Shown here: positions 995-20,351 of the stretch, in pieces | Layout of the letters: each line of letters begins with the position of its first letter | Numbering within the stretch: position 1 is the stretch's first letter | DNA from: Gracilinema caldarium | GTDB lineage: Bacteria > Spirochaetota > Spirochaetia > Treponematales > Breznakiellaceae | Length of the DNA stretch: 50,671 nucleotides | Reading direction: 5' to 3' | Assembly: GCF_029265695.1 (NCBI RefSeq) | Contig: NZ_JAJUHW010000020.1 | Location: forward strand, 1 to 50,671 | Program-made: the position numbers and the translations under genes | The notes under the pieces: generated by a model | Told to the model about the DNA's origin: nothing | Seen by the model: only the letters and a program-made list of their open reading frames with translations | Database searches by the model: none

Positions 995-2019
995 GCACAT
1001 TGATGAACCTACGCCGTACTTCAGGTTTCCTTATCCTCTGTTGTATAGCTGCTTTCATCCTTGCTAGCTGCGCGCTCCTTATAATAGATTATTTCCCTGC
1101 CTACTTGGGCCAGGAAAAGGCCGTGGCACATTTTTCGGAAATTGTAAAAACCGCGGGGCTTTCGGAAACAACGGAGCTGCATGAGATCTATCTCTTAACC
1201 GTACCAGGGTCGGGTAAAAAGTTTGTGGTCTTAAGGGTAGGGCAGTTCATGAGTCCTGAGACCCTTATATTCTTAGATGGTACGGATCTCCGTTTTCTTC
1301 GCTCCTTTACAAATATACCGATAGGAAAGTTCCTTACGGTGGATATGGGTGGATATATAGTAACCGGGTGGAATACTCAACTGGTCCGTTTATATCCGGA
1401 TACCCTTGAACCTGAAAATACTCCTCCCAATCCAAGCCCAACTATTGATTTTGCCCAGTTCGCCTTTACCGCTGAAGTCGGTAGTGATATTACAACCTAT
1501 CTAGTAGGTATAGAGTCTGATTGTCTAAATTTAATTGTATATAACAATGATTGGTCTTCAGGTTCTTCTTATTCACAAAGTAATCTGTTTGATTCCCAAT
1601 CTATAACAAACTTTGAATACCGAGACCTCTTTTATGACGGCACTGGGGTCCAGCTCGCGGTGACCAATAAAATAACCCAGGAATCTTTTGTTATTTCATG
1701 GAGCACTCTTACAGAATTTGTCAATGCCTTTAGTAATCTACATTTTTTTGCAGAAAATGCGACCAACGTTGTTTCTGTCCCCCGGGGAGACGGACAAGCA
1801 GGCGGACTTACCAATGCTGGGTATATTCAGCTCATGTATGGATATGCAAAAAAGACAATCCTTGACCGAAGAAATACATCAACGGGACAACAAGAATTAC
1901 CTGTTTTTACCATGCCGGATAACTTTCGTGGCCGTTTTGCTTTTTTTCGGGATGCCTCAGCCTGGGTACTCTACAATCAGCGGGATGGAAAGATCCATCT
2001 GTTAAGGCCCTGGTGGTAG
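991..2019 (+). CDS. Lipoprotein of unknown function, first module
   Basis: The 342-residue product begins with a basic N-terminus, a hydrophobic stretch and the lipobox LASC, with the lipidated cysteine at residue 27, so it should be a membrane-anchored lipoprotein. The rest is beta-rich and has no motif I recognise. It mixes short hydrophobic strands with Tyr/Asn/Ser loops, which suggests a beta-propeller-like or repeat fold, but this is only an impression. It overlaps the upstream barrel-like gene by four bases (ATGA), so translation is probably coupled. The lipoprotein at 3342 has the same length (343 residues), the same position after a barrel-like gene and the same overlap, so the two are probably diverged duplicates. 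Confidence 0.7.
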   Translation: MSTLMNLRRTSGFLILCCIAAFILASCALLIIDYFPAYLGQEKAVAHFSEIVKTAGLSETTELHEIYLLTVPGSGKKFVVLRVGQFMSPETLIFLDGTDLRFLRSFTNIPIGKFLTVDMGGYIVTGWNTQLVRLYPDTLEPENTPPNPSPTIDFAQFAFTAEVGSDITTYLVGIESDCLNLIVYNNDWSSGSSYSQSNLFDSQSITNFEYRDLFYDGTGVQLAVTNKITQESFVISWSTLTEFVNAFSNLHFFAENATNVVSVPRGDGQAGGLTNAGYIQLMYGYAKKTILDRRNTSTGQQELPVFTMPDNFRGRFAFFRDASAWVLYNQRDGKIHLLRPWW

Positions 2020-2052
2020 CTTATGGGAACCACATATCGGAGGTTGCGGCAA

Positions 2053-3345
2053 ATGAATCTATGGCTTGCTCTGATAAAGGGTAGGTTTGTTCTCTTTATA
2101 GTAAGCCTTATCCTCCTTGGGAGTCTGCCCCTCTTTGCCCAGGAGCCGCAAGAAACCCAGGATGCCTCCCCGCCGCGGTCCTTTGTGGTCTTTGCCTCCA
2201 CGTCCATGGATAGCATCTGGTTCGATTCTCTCTGGTACAACCTGGGCCGTCTTTCCCGACTGCGGGAACTCTACCGCTGGGTGCCCGGTAAGAAGTCTGA
2301 GGCAGAATCCGCAGCAACCACTGACGATAGGCCCGACGTGAACTTGGCTATCGGCGAATCGGAAGTACAAGCCTGCCGCCGCTGGGCAGCCCTGCATGAC
2401 TATAGTTTTATTCTTGTTCTCCAACGAGAAGCCGATACTGGACCAGAGCTGGTTAGGATTTCCTACCGGGTGGTAGATGTTATTTCTGGACAGGAGCGGC
2501 TCTCGGGAATTCTTGAGGACCAGATCCCCAATGAACGAGACCTGCAGGAAATCTTCTGGCTTCCCCTTATGGCTGAACTAGACACCCTGGAAGCCCAGAA
2601 AAACGTGGGACTCCTTACGGTGCGGGCCCTGCCAGGAACTAAGGTTATAGGTCTTGGTTCTGATCTGCCTCTGATAGATGAAAGTGGCGAGGCTATAGTG
2701 CAGATAACGATCCCCGGTACCTACCGCTGGAAAGCCATAGTCGGCGGAATGGCAACTGCTTCAGGTATTATAAGCCTCCGGGAAAGTCCCGCGGAGCTCA
2801 ACATTTCGCAGCGGCAGTCAAGCTCTTGGACCCTCGAAGCAGGGGCCCTGATGGGCCAATTCGGTGATTTTTGGGTTTCTAAGCTTTTTGCGAAGGAACA
2901 ATACTGGTTAGGCTTCGGTCTTCAGCAGTATTGGATCGGCATTAACTATCCGAGCCCTGAGGATCCATTTCCCTATTCGCAGCCGGTTATATCTTTACCT
3001 ATGATACAGCCGGGCCTTTCTTTAGGATACCGCTTCTTTGATGATACATCTTTTTTGCGTCCCTACCTGTCCGCTCTTATAATGGCCAGGCTTAATACGA
3101 GCCTTATGATGCTTGATCCAGTAGCTCCCATGGTTATCTATGGAAACGGAGGCCTTGAGTGGCGACTATTTCGTTCCGTGGCTTTCTTTGCGGAAACCAG
3201 CACAGCCTACTATCCTCTGAGCATGGGGCGTTTCTTGGCTGCGAGCAAGGTTGGCATAAATAGAGCCCTTTCGAATTATCTTTTTGCGGAGGACTGGTTC
3301 TTGGAATTTCCGATTTTTCGGCTAGGGGTACGATATTTCTTATGA
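2053..3345 (+). CDS. Exported barrel-like protein, second module
   Basis: I take the ATG at 2053 rather than the in-frame ATG at 2023. GGAGG at 2039-2043 lies nine bases before it, and translation then begins directly with a signal peptide (MNLWLALIKGR followed by a hydrophobic core and LFAQ), giving 430 residues. A PEGA-like beta segment follows near the middle (LLTVRALPGTKVIGLG to GTYRWKAIV). The last third looks like a small outer-membrane beta-barrel with alternating residues and ends in VRYFL, a hydrophobic/aromatic C-terminus typical of barrels. The stop overlaps the next lipoprotein start by four bases. Family unknown. It probably sits in the outer membrane and works with the lipoprotein encoded next to it. 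Confidence 0.65.
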   Translation: MNLWLALIKGRFVLFIVSLILLGSLPLFAQEPQETQDASPPRSFVVFASTSMDSIWFDSLWYNLGRLSRLRELYRWVPGKKSEAESAATTDDRPDVNLAIGESEVQACRRWAALHDYSFILVLQREADTGPELVRISYRVVDVISGQERLSGILEDQIPNERDLQEIFWLPLMAELDTLEAQKNVGLLTVRALPGTKVIGLGSDLPLIDESGEAIVQITIPGTYRWKAIVGGMATASGIISLRESPAELNISQRQSSSWTLEAGALMGQFGDFWVSKLFAKEQYWLGFGLQQYWIGINYPSPEDPFPYSQPVISLPMIQPGLSLGYRFFDDTSFLRPYLSALIMARLNTSLMMLDPVAPMVIYGNGGLEWRLFRSVAFFAETSTAYYPLSMGRFLAASKVGINRALSNYLFAEDWFLEFPIFRLGVRYFL

Positions 3346-4373
3346 AACAGATACGGTTTTTTGGTGACACACCACTGAAGTATGCCTTGCTGCTCCTTGG
3401 GCTCACGAGCCTAGCCCTTGCGTCCTGCTGGCACCCACCCTTTAACCCCGATATTTCTGCTTCGGTCATAACAAGCCAAAAACTGGGGACCCCTGTCTGG
3501 GAAGTCCGAACCCGGCTCCCCTCATATATCACGAGGGCTTACTATGTGCCATCGAGAACTAACTATGAACAGGGATTATGGATAGGCTATGATAACGACA
3601 GATTGAGCCTTAGCCAATTTTATTACAATTTTAGCAAAGCGTTAATAGATCACTATATGGAAATTACGCTTCCCTCAGATGCGGGGAAAAAAATTATTCC
3701 CTCCATTGGAGCTCCGAGCGTTTTTTTCATGAGTTTTTCTCTTTTGGATAAGTGGCTCATCTATAATACGAATAATTATTTTGTTTCTTCACTTGAATAT
3801 CCAGGCTTTTTAGGTACAGGTTTTCGTTATGAAACTGATACTATGGATATATTATTTATTGCCCAGTTAGTGTCTGATCAAATAAAATTATATAAATATG
3901 GTGTAGCTGGATATGTGTCATCATTTGATTTTGGAGAATTGAATACTTATCTTATCCTTCCCCCCGAGCTGCCTTTCACGGTAACCTTGGCTGTTCCGAC
4001 TTCTTCTGGGGCTCTGTACCTCTCTGGCACAAAATCCGATGGGTCAGCTGTTACCTGGTTTTGGCCTGGACTGTCAGACACACCGTACATCCTCCCCATA
4101 GACAAGCCTCTTACAGGGGTTCTGTCAGACGGGAGGCTTATTGCCGATTCGGGAGATCGGCTCTATGTCTACAGCCCTGATGGCTCTTCATCTTTTGTTA
4201 TTTCTACTGGAGCGCTCCACTTTTCCTATGAACGGTACGACAGCGCTCAGTCGCGCTGGATTTCGGTTTTTACACGAACCGTTGAAACTCCGGTTCCCCA
4301 CAGCACCGATTCTGACTACCTTATTTCTATTTACGAGATACCAACAAGCCGGCTTTCAGAATTGGCCCGATAG
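3342..4373 (+). CDS. Lipoprotein of unknown function, second module
   Basis: The 343-residue product has a signal sequence ending in the lipobox LASC, with the cysteine at residue 29. The mature part is beta-rich with several FYYNF and YDSAQSRW-like segments and no catalytic motif I can name. It overlaps the preceding barrel-like gene as ATGA. It has almost exactly the length of the lipoprotein at 991 and the same place in the module. That supports duplication, but I see little residue-level identity, so any duplication is old. It is the last gene of the plus-strand cluster; the next gene is convergent. Confidence 0.7.
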   Translation: MKQIRFFGDTPLKYALLLLGLTSLALASCWHPPFNPDISASVITSQKLGTPVWEVRTRLPSYITRAYYVPSRTNYEQGLWIGYDNDRLSLSQFYYNFSKALIDHYMEITLPSDAGKKIIPSIGAPSVFFMSFSLLDKWLIYNTNNYFVSSLEYPGFLGTGFRYETDTMDILFIAQLVSDQIKLYKYGVAGYVSSFDFGELNTYLILPPELPFTVTLAVPTSSGALYLSGTKSDGSAVTWFWPGLSDTPYILPIDKPLTGVLSDGRLIADSGDRLYVYSPDGSSSFVISTGALHFSYERYDSAQSRWISVFTRTVETPVPHSTDSDYLISIYEIPTSRLSELAR

Positions 4374-9781: not shown

Positions 9782-9865
9782 TAAGTTACTGCTGTATTTA
9801 TTTGAATTAGAATCAATAGGTATGTCAGAACAATCTGCAACCAATTGCAAAGGAGGGTTATTCGA

Positions 9866-11593
9866 GTGAAGAAAAATAAAACACGTTTACTTGTTGTATC
9901 ACTATTGATCGCGATGTTTTCCGCAATTCATGCACCGCAGCTCCATGCGCTCGAAGCAGACCTTGTATCTGCAGAAATATATATAACCCTTCATACCGAC
10001 GGTAAGGCGGTTATTCAGCATGCTCTTGAATGGCAGGTTGCGTCCGGCACCATGGGGGGCTTTTATTTTCAGGGAGAAGCAGCCCCCTTTGCATGGGATC
10101 AGGAGCGTTGTTGGGCCGATACGGCTGATGGCAAACGTATTCCGTTAGATATCCGCAAGGCCGGTGACAAGTGGGACGTTTTGCTGACCGATGCGCAGCG
10201 TTTTTCTGGAACAAGCCACTGGGTACTGACCTATGGTGCAGATCTCGCTGCAGCTGGTATGCTCGATACTACCAATAGCAGTGACCGTGGAGATCTTATC
10301 GTATTCCATTGGGCGCCACCTGTTTGGGACGAACCATTGGAACACCGAACAATAACTATCATTTTACCTATTCTAGTATCCCAAGGGGCTCGAGGCGATA
10401 GCAGAGCTTCTGAACTCGAAGCTCTTGGATTTGCTACCGAAGCCTTTGTAAACGCTAAAAATAAGATCGACTGGTATGCCCTTCCAGGAAACGATGGAAA
10501 ATACTATCTTGCACTACGTTTTCATGAAGAGCCAGTGCAGGCTGGTGGCACCAATGAGATACAATGGTATTTATCAGAACCTAAAATAGCTGCCTATTTT
10601 GAGCCATTTTTGGCAGCTCGAACGAGTTCCAGTTCCACTCCTTCCAGCCAGAAAAAAGAAGACTGGTCTTCTGCCGACCAGAGAACAGCCGGCAAAGCGC
10701 TCGTCACCCCCGATTCCCATCCACTGCTATTTATCTTTCTCTCAGGTGGACTTGTTGCCCTGGGAGCCTTTCTCTTTCGGAAAAAAGTCCAGGGTTTTCC
10801 CCGAGCTGTGGCGAAAGCGGAAGGGATAGCCTGGGCGGGGGATTCGTGGATGCCACCTCGACTTGTAGAAGGAACCTATTCCGTTCCGGGAAAGGTGGCA
10901 GAAAACCTGCATCCGCTCGAAGTAGCCATGCTTCTTGAGCTTACACTTCCGCAGATAATAGCCATTATGATTCAGACCTTGGAAACACAGGGAATTATTA
11001 AATTAATTCAGGAAGCACCCCTTAAGATCCAGATCCTGAAAGGTCCCTCAGAGCTTGGGGCTGCTGGAGCACCAGAAGACAATTATGGAGAGCTCTTTCT
11101 CAGATCCTTCGATACCGAGGGCTGGGTCTTGTCAGGTCTATTGGCCGACTTCTTTGAGGCTGTCATTAAGGGACTCCAAGAAAAGGTGTGGGACTGCGAT
11201 ATCGAAGCAACTAAGGCCTACTACCGTAAAAAAATGGAAGCATCGGATGAATCTGTTATTACAGGAACCTCCATGCTTCAATCTCAAAGTAGCATGGGTG
11301 CTACATATTATCCCTACTGGCATTCATACTATTATCTTCATCATCATCCTGATCATTTTAGGTCCTATGGGCTTCCTCAAGAATTTTCCGGAACCTATGC
11401 GGCTTTTATGGCTTCCAGTTCTTGTTTCTCTGGTTGTTATTCACCTAAGAATCTTTCAGGAACCGCAGGGGCCTGCTATTCTGCTTGTCATAATGCCTGT
11501 CATTCAGCGTGTCATCAGGCATGCCATTCCGCTTGTCATAGCGCTTGCCATTCAGCTTGCCACAGCGCGTGTGTTTCAGGGGGCGCTCATTGA
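9866..11593 (+). CDS. DUF2207-like membrane protein with Cys/His repeat tail, probable radical SAM substrate
   Basis: Start is GTG 9866, nine bases after GGAGG (9852-9856); the ATG at 9845 lies before that SD. The 575-residue product has a signal peptide to about residue 28 (QLHA), an extracytoplasmic beta-rich domain like the N-part of DUF2207 proteins, and one membrane helix at about 287-306. After that comes FRKKVQG; the positive charge puts the C-terminal half in the cytoplasm. That half holds a winged-helix-like segment (HPLEVAMLLELTLPQIIAIMI), a Tyr/His-rich stretch, and a tail with nine cysteines every fourth residue (Cys537 to Cys569), mostly CHSA units. The next gene is a radical SAM/SPASM enzyme overlapping by four bases, which suggests the tail is its substrate. 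Domain calls moderate; substrate role inferred. Confidence 0.75.
   Translation: MKKNKTRLLVVSLLIAMFSAIHAPQLHALEADLVSAEIYITLHTDGKAVIQHALEWQVASGTMGGFYFQGEAAPFAWDQERCWADTADGKRIPLDIRKAGDKWDVLLTDAQRFSGTSHWVLTYGADLAAAGMLDTTNSSDRGDLIVFHWAPPVWDEPLEHRTITIILPILVSQGARGDSRASELEALGFATEAFVNAKNKIDWYALPGNDGKYYLALRFHEEPVQAGGTNEIQWYLSEPKIAAYFEPFLAARTSSSSTPSSQKKEDWSSADQRTAGKALVTPDSHPLLFIFLSGGLVALGAFLFRKKVQGFPRAVAKAEGIAWAGDSWMPPRLVEGTYSVPGKVAENLHPLEVAMLLELTLPQIIAIMIQTLETQGIIKLIQEAPLKIQILKGPSELGAAGAPEDNYGELFLRSFDTEGWVLSGLLADFFEAVIKGLQEKVWDCDIEATKAYYRKKMEASDESVITGTSMLQSQSSMGATYYPYWHSYYYLHHHPDHFRSYGLPQEFSGTYAAFMASSSCFSGCYSPKNLSGTAGACYSACHNACHSACHQACHSACHSACHSACHSACVSGGAH
11474..11572 (+). repeat. 12-bp coding tandem repeat, Cys-His-Ser-Ala tail
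   Basis: Eight and a quarter in-frame units of 12 bases encode CYSA, CHNA, CHSA, CHQA, four CHSA and a last Cys. Codons vary between copies (TGC/TGT, GCT/GCC/GCG, TCA/TCC/AGC), so the array is not a fresh slippage product. The period of four residues is kept exactly while the second and third residues vary slightly. Confidence 0.9.
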
Positions 11594-12969
11594 AAGCCTT
11601 TGTTACCCGTGCCCCGGCATCCTCTCGCCTTACATGGATAGACGAATTTTGGAACCGGGCAGGCTCATATATTTTTTGCCGTGATCTGGATCAGGTATTA
11701 ATTTTGCCCCCTAACCGGGTGTATCGGACCAATGAAACGGGTATTCGGCTCCTGACATTTCTGAAACAGGGGCGTTCTATTCAGGATATTGATTTCCCTT
11801 CAGAACAGGCACGGGAAGATACGGCCCGGTTTTTCGGAGATTTAGCAGCCTTATATCGGGGCGACCGGCCGGAAAATGGAACCGTATCTACCCAAACCTA
11901 TGATTTTTCGTTTACCCGGCTGCCGATATTAGCAGAACTCGCTCTGACTTACCGATGTAACAATGCGTGCCGCTTCTGCTATGCAGGCTGTGGTGCCGAT
12001 ACCGCTTCCGCTGACCATAGTGGTGCTTGCTCGGTAGAAGCAAAATATCCTGAAAGCACCACGGCACAATATAAACGTATTATCGATATATTCGCTGATG
12101 AAGCTCAGGTTCCCTTTTTTTCCTTTACCGGTGGAGAGCCCACCCTTCGCCATGATCTGGAAGAATTGATTTCTTATGCCCGCTCAAGACAGCTTGTAAC
12201 AAACCTGGTGACCAATGGCACGCTTATTACAGAAAAACGAGCCCAGACTCTAAAAGCTGCCGGGCTTGGCAGCGCTCAGGTATCGGTGGAAGGTCCTACG
12301 GCGGATGTGCATGACAGCCTCGTGGGGCGCCAAAGTAGCTTTAAAGCAACACTGCGGGGCATTGCAGCTCTACAGCAGGCAGGTATACCCACCCAAACCA
12401 ATACGACCATCACGAGGGACAACATCGATCTTATACCCCTCATGCCCGCCTTCCTTGCCACACTTGGTATAGAGCGCTTTGCTATGAATCTCTACATACC
12501 AACCATACCAGGTCCCGAAGCGGACCGGCTCTTTGTGGCCTATGAGGAAATAGGAGCCTTGGTAGACCAGGTGATAAAAGAAGCTCGCCGACTCGGTATG
12601 ACTTTTTTCTGGTACAGTCCCACCCCATTCTGCTCATATAACCCTATTGCTCGAGGTCAAGGAAATAAAAGCTGCGCTGCCCTGGATGGTCTTCTTTCAG
12701 TGGCTCCCGACGGTTCTGTACTTCCCTGTTCAAGCTGGGATGAGCCCATGGGCAACGTGCTTGAACAATCCTTTAAAGAGATTTGGTTTGGCTCAAAAAG
12801 CGCTTTTTTTAAGGAAAAACATTTTGCTCCCCAGCTCTGCAAAAAATGCCCATCCTTTGTTGCCTGCCAGGGTGCCTGTCCCCTCTACTGGCGCTATACA
12901 AAAACCTGTCCGCCGGGTTTGGAACAACTAACGCAGGCGGCTCAGTCTGTCGAAAGGAGTGACTTATGA
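11590..12969 (+). CDS. Radical SAM/SPASM peptide-modifying enzyme with PqqD-like N-terminus
   Basis: The likely start is TTG 11590, six bases after AGGGGG (11578-11583) and overlapping the stop of the previous gene as TTGA; the in-frame ATG 11545 lies inside the repeat tail and has no SD. The product has 459 residues. Residues about 20-90 (LDQVLILPPNRVYRTNETG and onward) look like the PqqD/RRE fold that binds peptide substrates. The SAM cluster motif CNNACRFC gives Cys123, 127 and 130; SFTGGEPTLR follows. The C-terminal SPASM domain fits the family pattern: Cys362, Cys380 (GX4C), Cys417, 420, 426, 430 and 440, enough for auxiliary clusters. Such enzymes make crosslinks or thioethers in peptides. 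The obvious local substrate is the Cys/His tail encoded just upstream. Family firm; reaction unknown. Confidence 0.88.
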   Translation: MKAFVTRAPASSRLTWIDEFWNRAGSYIFCRDLDQVLILPPNRVYRTNETGIRLLTFLKQGRSIQDIDFPSEQAREDTARFFGDLAALYRGDRPENGTVSTQTYDFSFTRLPILAELALTYRCNNACRFCYAGCGADTASADHSGACSVEAKYPESTTAQYKRIIDIFADEAQVPFFSFTGGEPTLRHDLEELISYARSRQLVTNLVTNGTLITEKRAQTLKAAGLGSAQVSVEGPTADVHDSLVGRQSSFKATLRGIAALQQAGIPTQTNTTITRDNIDLIPLMPAFLATLGIERFAMNLYIPTIPGPEADRLFVAYEEIGALVDQVIKEARRLGMTFFWYSPTPFCSYNPIARGQGNKSCAALDGLLSVAPDGSVLPCSSWDEPMGNVLEQSFKEIWFGSKSAFFKEKHFAPQLCKKCPSFVACQGACPLYWRYTKTCPPGLEQLTQAAQSVERSDL

Positions 12970-13862
12970 TTCCGGTTTCTGTTCCCTATCGAATTTCGGG
13001 TCTGTCTACCGACTCCCGCCTTATTGTGTATTCTATCGTAGCAGTCCTTGGCATACTGATACAGGTTTTTGTTCCCCAGTACAGGACCGCAGGAATTTTT
13101 ATGATGCTTTTGCCGCTTCCTTTGCTCAGCGCCCGTCCCTGGACTAATAAACCAAAGGATTTAGGAGAAGAGGATTGGCAGGCGGTTACCGATGCGGAAG
13201 TGGATCGGATTGCTGAAAACTTTAAGAATGCCCGGAAAATCCGCATCCCCCTCTGGTACCGTCCCGGTTTCGGCATACCCTTTACGATCATCCTGACGGT
13301 TCTCTCCTTTGTGTTTGACCTTGAACGCACTATCCCTGGCATCCTTTGTATGGACGCCCTTATTCTTCTCTGGCCCGCCCTCTATTTTCTCAAAATTAAG
13401 ATTTGGATTCCCCGCCAATTTGAACTGATTATGACCGCCATTCAGGCGGCTCGGACTGTTTCGCTGCCTGCTGGTATTCACTGTACACCCTATCTCCGAT
13501 TTGACCGTGACAGGGAAGGCCTGCTCATTCCGGAAGACTGCAGGCTCATGTATGAAATCCGCAACAAGCCGGCAGACCTAGTAGGTGTTCAGGTCCAGGT
13601 AGTCGTCAATAATGGACCGAACGGCGAAGTTCCTTATATGTATGCGGTCGTGCTGACCCACGGCCAGGGACAGACCTGGAAGAAAATTATCAGCATGGGG
13701 CTGGACCGAAAATTTGTGGTGGAGCCGGGAGGCGATGAAGACTATGGTACCGTTGTCATCAGGCAAAAAACCGATGACGGCGGCTACCATACCACTAAGG
13801 ATGACTGCAGAACCTTGATCTATTGGGTAATTCAAATTTTGGAAAAATTAGCATCACATTAA
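12966..13862 (+). CDS. Membrane protein of unknown function in the radical SAM operon
   Basis: The ATG at 12966 overlaps the radical SAM stop (ATGA) and has GAAAGGAG upstream. The 298-residue product has two N-terminal membrane segments (SRLIVYSIVAVLGILIQVFV and IFMMLLPLPLL), a charged helical loop of about 40 residues, two more segments (FTIILTVLSFVF and LCMDALILLWPALYFL), and a soluble C-terminal domain of about 150 residues. That domain has a central stretch VGVQVQVVVNNGPNG and VVLTHGQGQTWKKI, with no catalytic motif I can name. Tight coupling to the radical SAM gene suggests it belongs to the same system, perhaps as a partner of the tailed membrane protein. The function is not known. Confidence 0.7.
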   Translation: MIPVSVPYRISGLSTDSRLIVYSIVAVLGILIQVFVPQYRTAGIFMMLLPLPLLSARPWTNKPKDLGEEDWQAVTDAEVDRIAENFKNARKIRIPLWYRPGFGIPFTIILTVLSFVFDLERTIPGILCMDALILLWPALYFLKIKIWIPRQFELIMTAIQAARTVSLPAGIHCTPYLRFDRDREGLLIPEDCRLMYEIRNKPADLVGVQVQVVVNNGPNGEVPYMYAVVLTHGQGQTWKKIISMGLDRKFVVEPGGDEDYGTVVIRQKTDDGGYHTTKDDCRTLIYWVIQILEKLASH

Positions 13863-17759: not shown

Positions 17760-20351
17760 ATGAAAAAGGCAAAGGGCGAGAATTTTCATCAATCTAATCT
17801 TATAGTTGTTGAGGTGGGAGCCTCTGCAGGGGGATTGGAAGCTCTGCAAGATTTTTTTAAGAATATGCCGGTTAACACCGGTATGGCCTTTGTTGTTATT
17901 CAACACCTGTCCCCGGATTACAAAAGTTTAATGGATGAACTGCTTGCCCGCGAAACATCTATTCCTATTCAAATTGCCGAAGATGGTATGGATGTCCTGC
18001 CTGACCATATTTACCTGATTCCGCCCCGTAAAAATCTTTCAATTTTTCATGACAAATTATATTTGGAAAACCAGGAACCGAAAAAGCGTTTGAATTTGCC
18101 GGTGGATATCTTTTTCCGTTCTCTAGCTTTGGATAAGGGAAAAAATGCAATTGGTATAATATTATCAGGCACAGGCAGCGATGGAACACTCGGGACCAGG
18201 GCTATTAAAGAAGCGGGCGGCATGATTATGGTCCAGGACGAAGAAAGTGCAAAATTCGATGGTATGCCGCGGAGCTGTATTGCCACAGGCCTCGTTGATT
18301 ATATACTGCCCCCTGCAAAAATGCCCGAAGCCCTGGTCAATTATATCAAACATCCCTTGGTGAGGGAGAAAAAGAGCCTGGAAGGGGACCTGCAGGATAA
18401 TCTCGACACGCTGACCAAAATCATACTTATTCTAAGAAATTTCGGCGGCATCGATTTTTCATTTTACAAGGATACAACCATACTCCGCCGGCTTGAACGG
18501 CGGCTCAGTATAAACCGTCATCAGACCCTGGAAGAATACCTGGAGTTTTTAAAAGATTCGGATAAAGAAAAGGAAACATTACAGCGGGAACTTCTTATTG
18601 GGGTAACCCGTTTTTTCCGGGATGTGGAAGCCTTCGAAGCCCTGAGAACTAAGGTCTTCCCTTCATGGAAAGGAAAAACATCCATTAGAATTTGGTCTGC
18701 TGGTTGTTCAACCGGGGAAGAAGTATATTCCCTTGCAATTTTATTGATCGAATATATGGAGCAGCAGGGCCTTTCGATGGATATTAAAATCTTTGCCACC
18801 GATGTGGACCGGAATTCTATAGAATATGCGGGGAAGGGATTTTATCCCGACAGTGTAGTTGCCGATTTGGAACCAACTCTGCTCACCAAGTACTTTTTAA
18901 GAAAGGACAATGGTTACCAAATCAATGACTCGATCCGCAAAATGATTGTATTTGCGACCCATAATCTGCTTAAGGATTCACCTTTCAGCAGGATAGATCT
19001 TATCGTATGCAGAAATCTGTTTATCTATATACGACCGGAAATACAAACCAAACTGCTGAGCATGTTCTATTACAGTCTTAATACGGATGGCTACCTGTTT
19101 CTAGGGACCAGCGAAACCTTGGGGGAAATGTCCGAAGCCTTTGAATACATAGACACCAAATGGAAAATATTCCGAATTAAATCCAATTACAAAGAACAAT
19201 ATGGCAAAATAGTTCCCCTTCTGAAAAGCGGACTCATTGAACAGCCCAACACGTTTCCAACAAAAGTAATTGCCGAAGAAGGTATCAGAATAGAAAAGAT
19301 TTTGGATCGTACCCTTTCGCTTTTTTTGCCCCCCAGTGTTATCGTCGATCAATCATTTAACATCATTCATACCATAAACGATATTAATCCCTATATTAAA
19401 ATTAAACCGGGGCGCTTTTCTCAGAACCTCTTTGATAACCTTCCTGCTGATATGTCTCTTTTTGTCAGCTCTCTTTTAAGGAAACTCAAACATGAAAACG
19501 AAAGCATAGCTACAGAAACTGTGTTTGATCTTAAAGGATTTGAGGAAAAACAAATTCTTTTAACGGGAAAGAAAATCGAAACCGAACGTGCAAACTATTA
19601 TATTATAAGTTTCTCAGAAAATGCTAAAACGATAGCCGCTCCAAAGGCAGTGCTTCCGAAGTCTCATTCCCAAAAGGAATATCAGGATCGGGTCTCGGAG
19701 CTGGAAAAAGAATTACAGTTTACCAAAGAAAGTCTTCAAGCTACAGTTGAAGAACTGGAGACATCTAACGAAGAATTGCAATCAAGCAATGAAGAGCTGA
19801 TAGCCAGCAATGAAGAATTGCAGAGTACTAACGAAGAATTGCAATCGGTTAACGAAGAGCTCTATACGGTAAATACCGAATATCAGGTTAAGATAGAGGA
19901 ACTAACACGGCTCAATAACGACATTAACAATCTTCTTAAAAATACAGAAATCGGTGCTATTTATCTGGACCGAAATCTGTGTATCCGTAAAATTACTCCT
20001 GTAATATCTAAGCTGACTCCTCTCATGGCTTCGGATCTTGGAAGGCCTATCTATCATCTTTCGCTTGGACCGGGCCTTGAGAATTTGTTTCAGGATATTC
20101 AGGATGTGGTGGATTCCCTGCAGCCACGGGATCGGGAAATTGAACTTGAAGGTTCCGGAACATATCTCGTGCGCATCCGGCCCTATCGGACGGACTATAA
20201 TGCGGTCGACGGTGTATTGATTATTTTTGTCGATATATCTGATTTGAAAAAACAGCATAAATTAACGCAGACCCTGAGCCAGCGTCTTGAAAATGCTTGG
20301 GAATATGGCATGGTGGGAATGGGATGTAGAAACCGGCATTGTAGACTATGA
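17760..20351 (+). CDS. CheB-CheR-PAS fusion protein, C-terminus lost by frameshift
   Basis: I use ATG 17760 after GAGGGG; a GTG at 17742 is in frame but has no SD. The CheB methylesterase domain (about 1-190) has Ser22 in GASAGG, His49 in IQHLSPD and Asp141 in GTGSDGTLG. The CheR methyltransferase domain (about 205-480) has the SAM loop [17 protein letters not shown] and NLFIYI. Next is a coiled coil of repeated TSNEELQS-type units, then one PAS domain. The frame then runs into 20 aberrant residues and stops at 20351. The next two PAS domains continue in another frame from 20287. One extra A in the AAAA run at 20290-20293 would explain this. Such fusions methylate and demethylate receptors and feed histidine kinases like the one downstream. 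Confidence 0.85.

Follow-up and report, generated by a model that had tools for sequence, protein, structure and literature searches.

The locus and its genes

The locus lies on the forward strand of a 50,671-nucleotide stretch of Gracilinema caldarium DNA, the whole of which is called the window here. As the first-pass annotation had described, it holds three genes with overlapping starts and stops. Upstream of these is a gene for a 200-residue membrane protein, P0004 (9179..9781), an accessory component that is kept in same-order relatives.

The first of the three genes (9866..11593) starts with a GTG about nine bases past the ribosome-binding site AGGAGGG (9851..9857). It codes for P0001, a membrane protein of 575 amino acids that had no match in Pfam or NCBIfam and is the putative substrate of the system discussed below. 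The protein is laid out as a signal peptide, an ectodomain, one transmembrane segment with five Lys/Arg residues behind it, a cytoplasmic domain, and a Cys tail. The ectodomain (residues 29-255, 9950..10630) is modeled by AlphaFold as an extracytoplasmic beta sandwich with a pLDDT of about 90. By structure comparison the model resembles Ost1/ribophorin and the N-domain of M1 aminopeptidases (Z 15.8, rmsd 3.0, 186 residues), a likeness of the predicted fold that is taken to indicate no function. Since the transmembrane segment predicted at residues 286-304 (10721..10777) is the only one and is followed by the basic residues, the C-terminal part of the protein is predicted to be cytoplasmic. Its winged-helix-like domain (residues 320-470, 10823..11275) is homologous to that of an Asgard protein with a Cys-Ala tail (hhalign probability 97.9%, E 3.8e-13).

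The end of the protein is its most distinctive part. The tail (11468..11590) reads CYSACHNACHSACHQACHSACHSACHSACHSAC, which bears out the earlier report of nine cysteines at an exact spacing of four residues, and it closes with CVSGGAH. Just upstream sits a CFSGC pair, and the Tyr/His-rich stretch ahead of the Cys-His-Ser-Ala (CHSA) repeat is conserved in character. The pre-tail segment (11351..11467), which includes GLPQEFSGTYAAFMASSSCFSGCYSP, is kept in the main spirochaete group, with 61% identity within the spirochaetes, and may be the segment by which the tail protein is recognized.

The second gene (11590..12969) codes for the enzyme, identified from Pfam profiles and alignment. Its most likely start is the TTG at 11590, which forms a TTGA overlap with the stop of the first gene; homologues begin at the equivalent overlap. 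The radical SAM and SPASM domains that had been proposed for it both pass their Pfam cut-offs (88.2 vs 29.5 bits and 43.5 vs 21.5 bits), and the CX3CX2C motif is invariant among the aligned relatives. The SPASM domain has seven further conserved cysteines; the eighth is not conserved and is missing in most relatives, which means that the full eight-Cys motif is not present. The PqqD-like, RRE-type domain proposed for the N-terminus (11695..11847) falls below the Pfam cut-off in the window's own enzyme (18.8 vs 23.4 bits), but three relatives exceed it (L018, L124, and L113, with 30.9, 27.1, and 24.1 bits).

The third gene (12966..13862), whose ATG overlaps the enzyme gene as ATGA, codes for P0003, a membrane protein of 298 amino acids that adjoins the enzyme in most spirochaete loci. 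It belongs to no known family or fold, and a fold search of the PDB gave no match with E < 0.001. Although it had been counted as part of the system, P0003 is best regarded as an accessory: neither the Asgard loci nor those of spirochaete family f34 have it. The profile of P0004 likewise had no match in the Asgard or f34 loci.

A tail and an enzyme that travel together

A search of genome contigs with the enzyme recovered 15 spirochaete (or spirochaete-like) loci and 7 from Thorarchaeota. The spirochaete loci keep the gene order P0004, tail protein, enzyme, P0003. The Thorarchaeota tail protein is about 28% identical and is encoded divergently near the enzyme, with the same CHSA repeats. An apparent fusion of substrate and enzyme in two loci (L008 and L014) was dismissed, because the L008 sequence contains an NN gap and the tail repeats of both loci lie in another frame. 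The fused reading frame in L014 is probably an assembly fault.

The extent of the partnership was surveyed in 345 spirochaete and 148 Asgard genomes. Among the spirochaetes, a DNA pattern for the tail and a profile for the enzyme each picked out 18 genomes; these are one and the same set, and in all of them the two genes adjoin. This agrees with the earlier view of a large membrane protein whose fixed Cys-repeat tail is tied to a single enzyme. A profile of the membrane protein found the same 18 genomes and one weak, partial match in a genome that is 69% complete. The reversed tail pattern, used as a control, occurred in none of the 345, so the tail is not due to chance. The sample includes 12 further genomes from the window's own family, and all parts are absent from every one (12/12); the distribution is therefore patchy.

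In the Asgard genomes, where CHSA-clade enzymes were counted at E below 1e-140, the tail is found in 26, the enzyme in 24, and both in 23 (Fisher p 1e-22, a value that overstates independence since the genomes are related). Contig ends or a broken gene account for all of the mismatches but one. In G346 (locus L019, about 1500-3800), the thorarchaeal tail-protein gene is interrupted after its first part, beside a tyrosine recombinase reading frame; in G441 the enzyme gene is cut by the contig end; in G447 the contig is only 5 kb long; and the enzyme of G483 is a truncated copy from the first (CHSA) clade. The unexplained exception is G474, which carries the tail protein on a 2.58-Mb contig and has no enzyme of the family. 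The tail protein of G474 (L119, 8853-11195) has an extra N-terminal extension with multiple transmembrane segments and one altered repeat (CHAAC). The pattern that had been named in advance as speaking against the system, namely enzyme homologues that always occur without a Cys-repeat protein, was not seen: the tail accompanies the enzyme in 18 of 18 spirochaete and 23 of 24 Asgard genomes.

The tail itself is held far more tightly than the protein that carries it. Spirochaete tails are 92% identical to one another and 86% to those of Thorarchaeota, a distance over which identity elsewhere in the protein is 11-33%. Across 22 spirochaete members, mean identity is 93% over the final 40 residues, third codon positions agree at 52%, and single serine sites of the tail use both TCN and AGY codons. 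Because the codons vary freely while the residues stay, it is the protein sequence of the tail, and not a DNA repeat, that is under selection. An origin of the tail by low-complexity slippage was rejected on the same grounds.

A second tail code in Asgard archaea

A sister clade of the enzyme in Asgard archaea (clade 2, E 1e-68 to 1e-98) adjoins a remote homologue of the tail protein, with the tail CACACACACACAGGGR. The partner has the same membrane-protein architecture and the homologous cytoplasmic domain already mentioned, and its tail, made of Cys-Ala (CA) repeats without His or Ser, reads GGGGCACACACACACAGGGR or nearly so. The Cys-His-Ser-Ala composition that the first-pass annotation had pointed out is thus not required for the pairing. 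The second code was found at loci L111-L117, L122, L147, and L148. Its pattern, CACACA-GGG, occurs in 26 Asgard genomes, 25 of which have the clade-2 enzyme, mostly immediately downstream of the tail gene, and none of the 148 Asgard genomes has both tail patterns. At most of the loci checked in this branch, the enzyme gene is followed by a gene for a class I SAM methyltransferase.

In the enzyme tree, the main spirochaete, f34 spirochaete, and Thorarchaeota CHSA groups stand apart from the Cys-Ala clade, with some weak deep nodes. That the type of tail tracks the clade of enzyme argues strongly that the two are enzyme and substrate. All that the two codes have in common is Cys and, ahead of most Cys, Ala: an Ala stands before 389 of the 448 Cys in the CHSA-type stretches of tail and before 47 of the 61 in the CA tails.

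The clade-2 enzyme occurs without a recognized Cys tail in six Asgard genomes. Unlinked CxCxC tails in such enzyme-only genomes look like chance, as a reversed control gives as many. At five loci (L118, L123, L138, L139, and L142), the clade-2 enzyme has no recognizable Cys-tail gene nearby, and a conserved gene of 235-258 amino acids, possibly a methyltransferase, lies downstream.

Comparison with known systems

The system appears to be undescribed, as had been supposed. Neither the tail protein nor the pair matched a named family among curated profiles, and the open-access literature yielded no paper on this pair, on CHSA repeats, on DUF2207 with a radical SAM enzyme, or on PqqD/radical SAM proteins in Asgard archaea. 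For the enzyme, none of the named radical SAM maturase families in NCBIfam exceeded its cut-off; the best was heme b synthase (130.4 vs 500 bits), and next in line were a pseudo-SAM family and NirJ2 and, after these, AhbC and PqqE, none of them anywhere near its cut-off. The closest solved structures by sequence are SkfB, PqqE, BlsE, Tes, SuiB, and CteB, the last being structure 5wgg.

The enzyme shares with SkfB, CteB, and PqqE (with its PqqD) a radical SAM core, a SPASM domain, and a PqqD-like recognition domain. It differs from SPASM peptide maturases in having seven conserved SPASM cysteines rather than eight, and while the known substrates of those enzymes are short peptides that carry leaders, the partner here is the fixed tail of a 575-residue membrane protein. 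The His-Xaa-Ser (Hxs) systems, in which HxsB and HxsC work with HxsA, resemble this one in joining a radical SAM enzyme to a repeat-bearing partner; here, however, the locus has one radical SAM gene and the repeats are of Cys. The resemblance noted in the first-pass annotation does not extend to membership, as no Hxs model came near its cut-off (HxsC4, 72.7 vs 500 bits). In the ACGX system, the target is a small peptide with Ala-Cys-containing repeats. The likeness covers both the radical SAM/SPASM enzyme and the Ala-Cys repeats of its target, but the window's enzyme scores 84.5 bits against the TIGR04340 cut-off of 400.

Large membrane proteins with low-complexity tails offer the other line of comparison. 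MNIO (DUF692) enzymes have been predicted to act on some TIGR04222 membrane proteins, namely subsets that have cysteines at the C-terminus (Antoine et al. 2025, PMC12452194). The predicted arrangement is similar, with a large membrane protein whose low-complexity C-terminal tail, often containing Cys, is found beside a RiPP-type modifying enzyme (PMC12452194). The enzyme there is an MNIO, whereas here it is a radical SAM protein. TIGR04222 tails are Ser/Gly-rich with scattered Cys and predicted to be periplasmic, while the present tail is near-invariant and predicted to be cytoplasmic. The association with MNIO is also loose (a third of the genomes lack one) and mostly found in Actinomycetota, in contrast to the near-exclusive pairing described here. 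TIGR04222 had been put forward as the first comparison; neither the tail protein nor the genome matched it at the NCBIfam cut-off of 43 bits (a distant relative reached 13.6 bits), and it serves better as an analogy than as a lead. The DUF2207 proteins (PF09972/PF20990) match P0001 in domain architecture, with a signal, a beta-rich ectodomain, a transmembrane segment, a cytoplasmic winged-helix-like domain, and a low-complexity tail; the family description has neither a Cys tail nor an enzyme partner. At the Pfam gathering score, DUF2207 had no match in P0001 or the genome, and relatives scored below threshold (20.4 vs 24.4 and 14.8 vs 33 bits).

A proposed modification system

The best overall explanation, and one held with considerable confidence, is that a PqqD/SPASM enzyme modifies the fixed Cys tail of its partner. 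Together the membrane protein and the radical SAM/SPASM enzyme would form a two-gene protein-modification system, in which the PqqD-like N-terminus of the enzyme would recognize the cytoplasmic part of the membrane protein. The enzyme probably acts on the tail, and it would do so in the cytoplasm, with the tail still attached to the membrane protein. The chemistry is a more tentative matter. A series of sactionine-type thioether cross-links, from Cys sulfur to a neighboring alpha carbon, is the most likely form it would take, at somewhat less than an even chance. Ala is a known sactionine acceptor, and it is the best candidate acceptor here because the Ala-Cys unit is common to the CHSA and CA tails. 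The stapled tail would then report on, or serve, the envelope domain outside. Counting against this explanation are G474 without an enzyme, the six clade-2 genomes without a recognized tail, the sub-threshold PqqD domain in the window's enzyme, the kinship among the genomes, which keeps the co-occurrence p-values from being independent, and the His of the CHSA tail, which would fit a metal-binding strip equally well.

The closest competitor keeps the main claim and changes only the chemistry. The enzyme could epimerize, decarboxylate, or oxidize the tail, or join its residues by a C-C or Cys-His linkage; the modified tail might also bind metal, and in the Cys-Ala branch the methyltransferase would supply a second step. 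This is about as probable as the thioethers. SPASM enzymes are versatile and catalyze many reactions, a methyltransferase does follow the enzyme in the Cys-Ala branch, and the absence of the eighth SPASM Cys could mean an auxiliary cluster unlike that of the known thioether formers. Even so, Cys, with Ala before it, is the sole feature common to both tails, which favors chemistry on Cys.

Two further readings would remove the tail from the enzyme's reach. The tail could be a Cys/His strip that binds a metal or cluster and is not covalently modified, with the enzyme making or loading something else in the same pathway. The CHSA repeat does offer Cys and His at regular spacing behind a Tyr/His-rich stretch of conserved character, and its His would suit metal binding as well as cross-linking. 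This reading is nevertheless unlikely, given that sister tails without His or Ser still pair with the sister enzyme, that the enzyme has a PqqD-like domain typical of peptide recognition, and that a shared pathway usually leads to a much looser pairing than this one. Less probable still, to the point of being improbable, is ordinary operon linkage between a DUF2207-like envelope protein and a cofactor-biosynthesis enzyme of the PqqE/AhbD kind. The ranking of heme b synthase, the pseudo-SAM family, NirJ2, AhbC, and PqqE among the curated scores fits such an enzyme, although all are far below cut-off, and the matching of tail type to enzyme clade speaks against it. Hitch-hiking in an operon cannot explain the pairing, because the Thorarchaeota genes are separated and divergent and yet co-occur.

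Modification of the tail by the enzyme thus remains the preferred reading. As a candidate enzyme and substrate the pair is real and well supported, it appears to be undescribed, and it represents a variation on the radical SAM maturation of proteins and peptides. A bolder proposal, whose chances we put just short of even, is that these proteins are trans-domain membrane sensors or redox relays. The SPASM enzyme would turn the cytoplasmic tail into a polycysteine rod, thioether-stapled or otherwise radical-modified, and the tail codes, of which there are two or more (CHSA and CA), would each have a different enzyme clade as reader; the modification would be permanent and not part of a natural-product pathway. 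If the modification is real, radical SAM/SPASM chemistry would operate on the fixed tail of an integral membrane protein in Bacteria as well as Asgard archaea, each tail code having its own matching enzyme. DUF2207/TIGR04222-type proteins, with their puzzling low-complexity tails, could then have dedicated modifying enzymes, and the pair would be a small, directly testable enzyme-substrate system of a new sort.

Other observations

A role in anti-phage defense was considered and set aside, the only similarity being to the viperin superfamily by way of the radical SAM core. Plasmid carriage was likewise dropped: plasmid matches were all below 60% identity, and the best is annotated as PqqE. In spirochaete family f34, a 421-residue coiled-coil protein with a zinc-ribbon-like motif comes after the enzyme (L124 5275-7070, L126 3824-5622, and L127 5205-6470); in L124 and L126, the two sequences read, next comes a membrane protein of about 178 residues that ends in a zinc-ribbon-like motif. 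Elsewhere in the window, positions 19770-19844 hold a 21-bp tandem repeat of 3.6 copies within an open reading frame.
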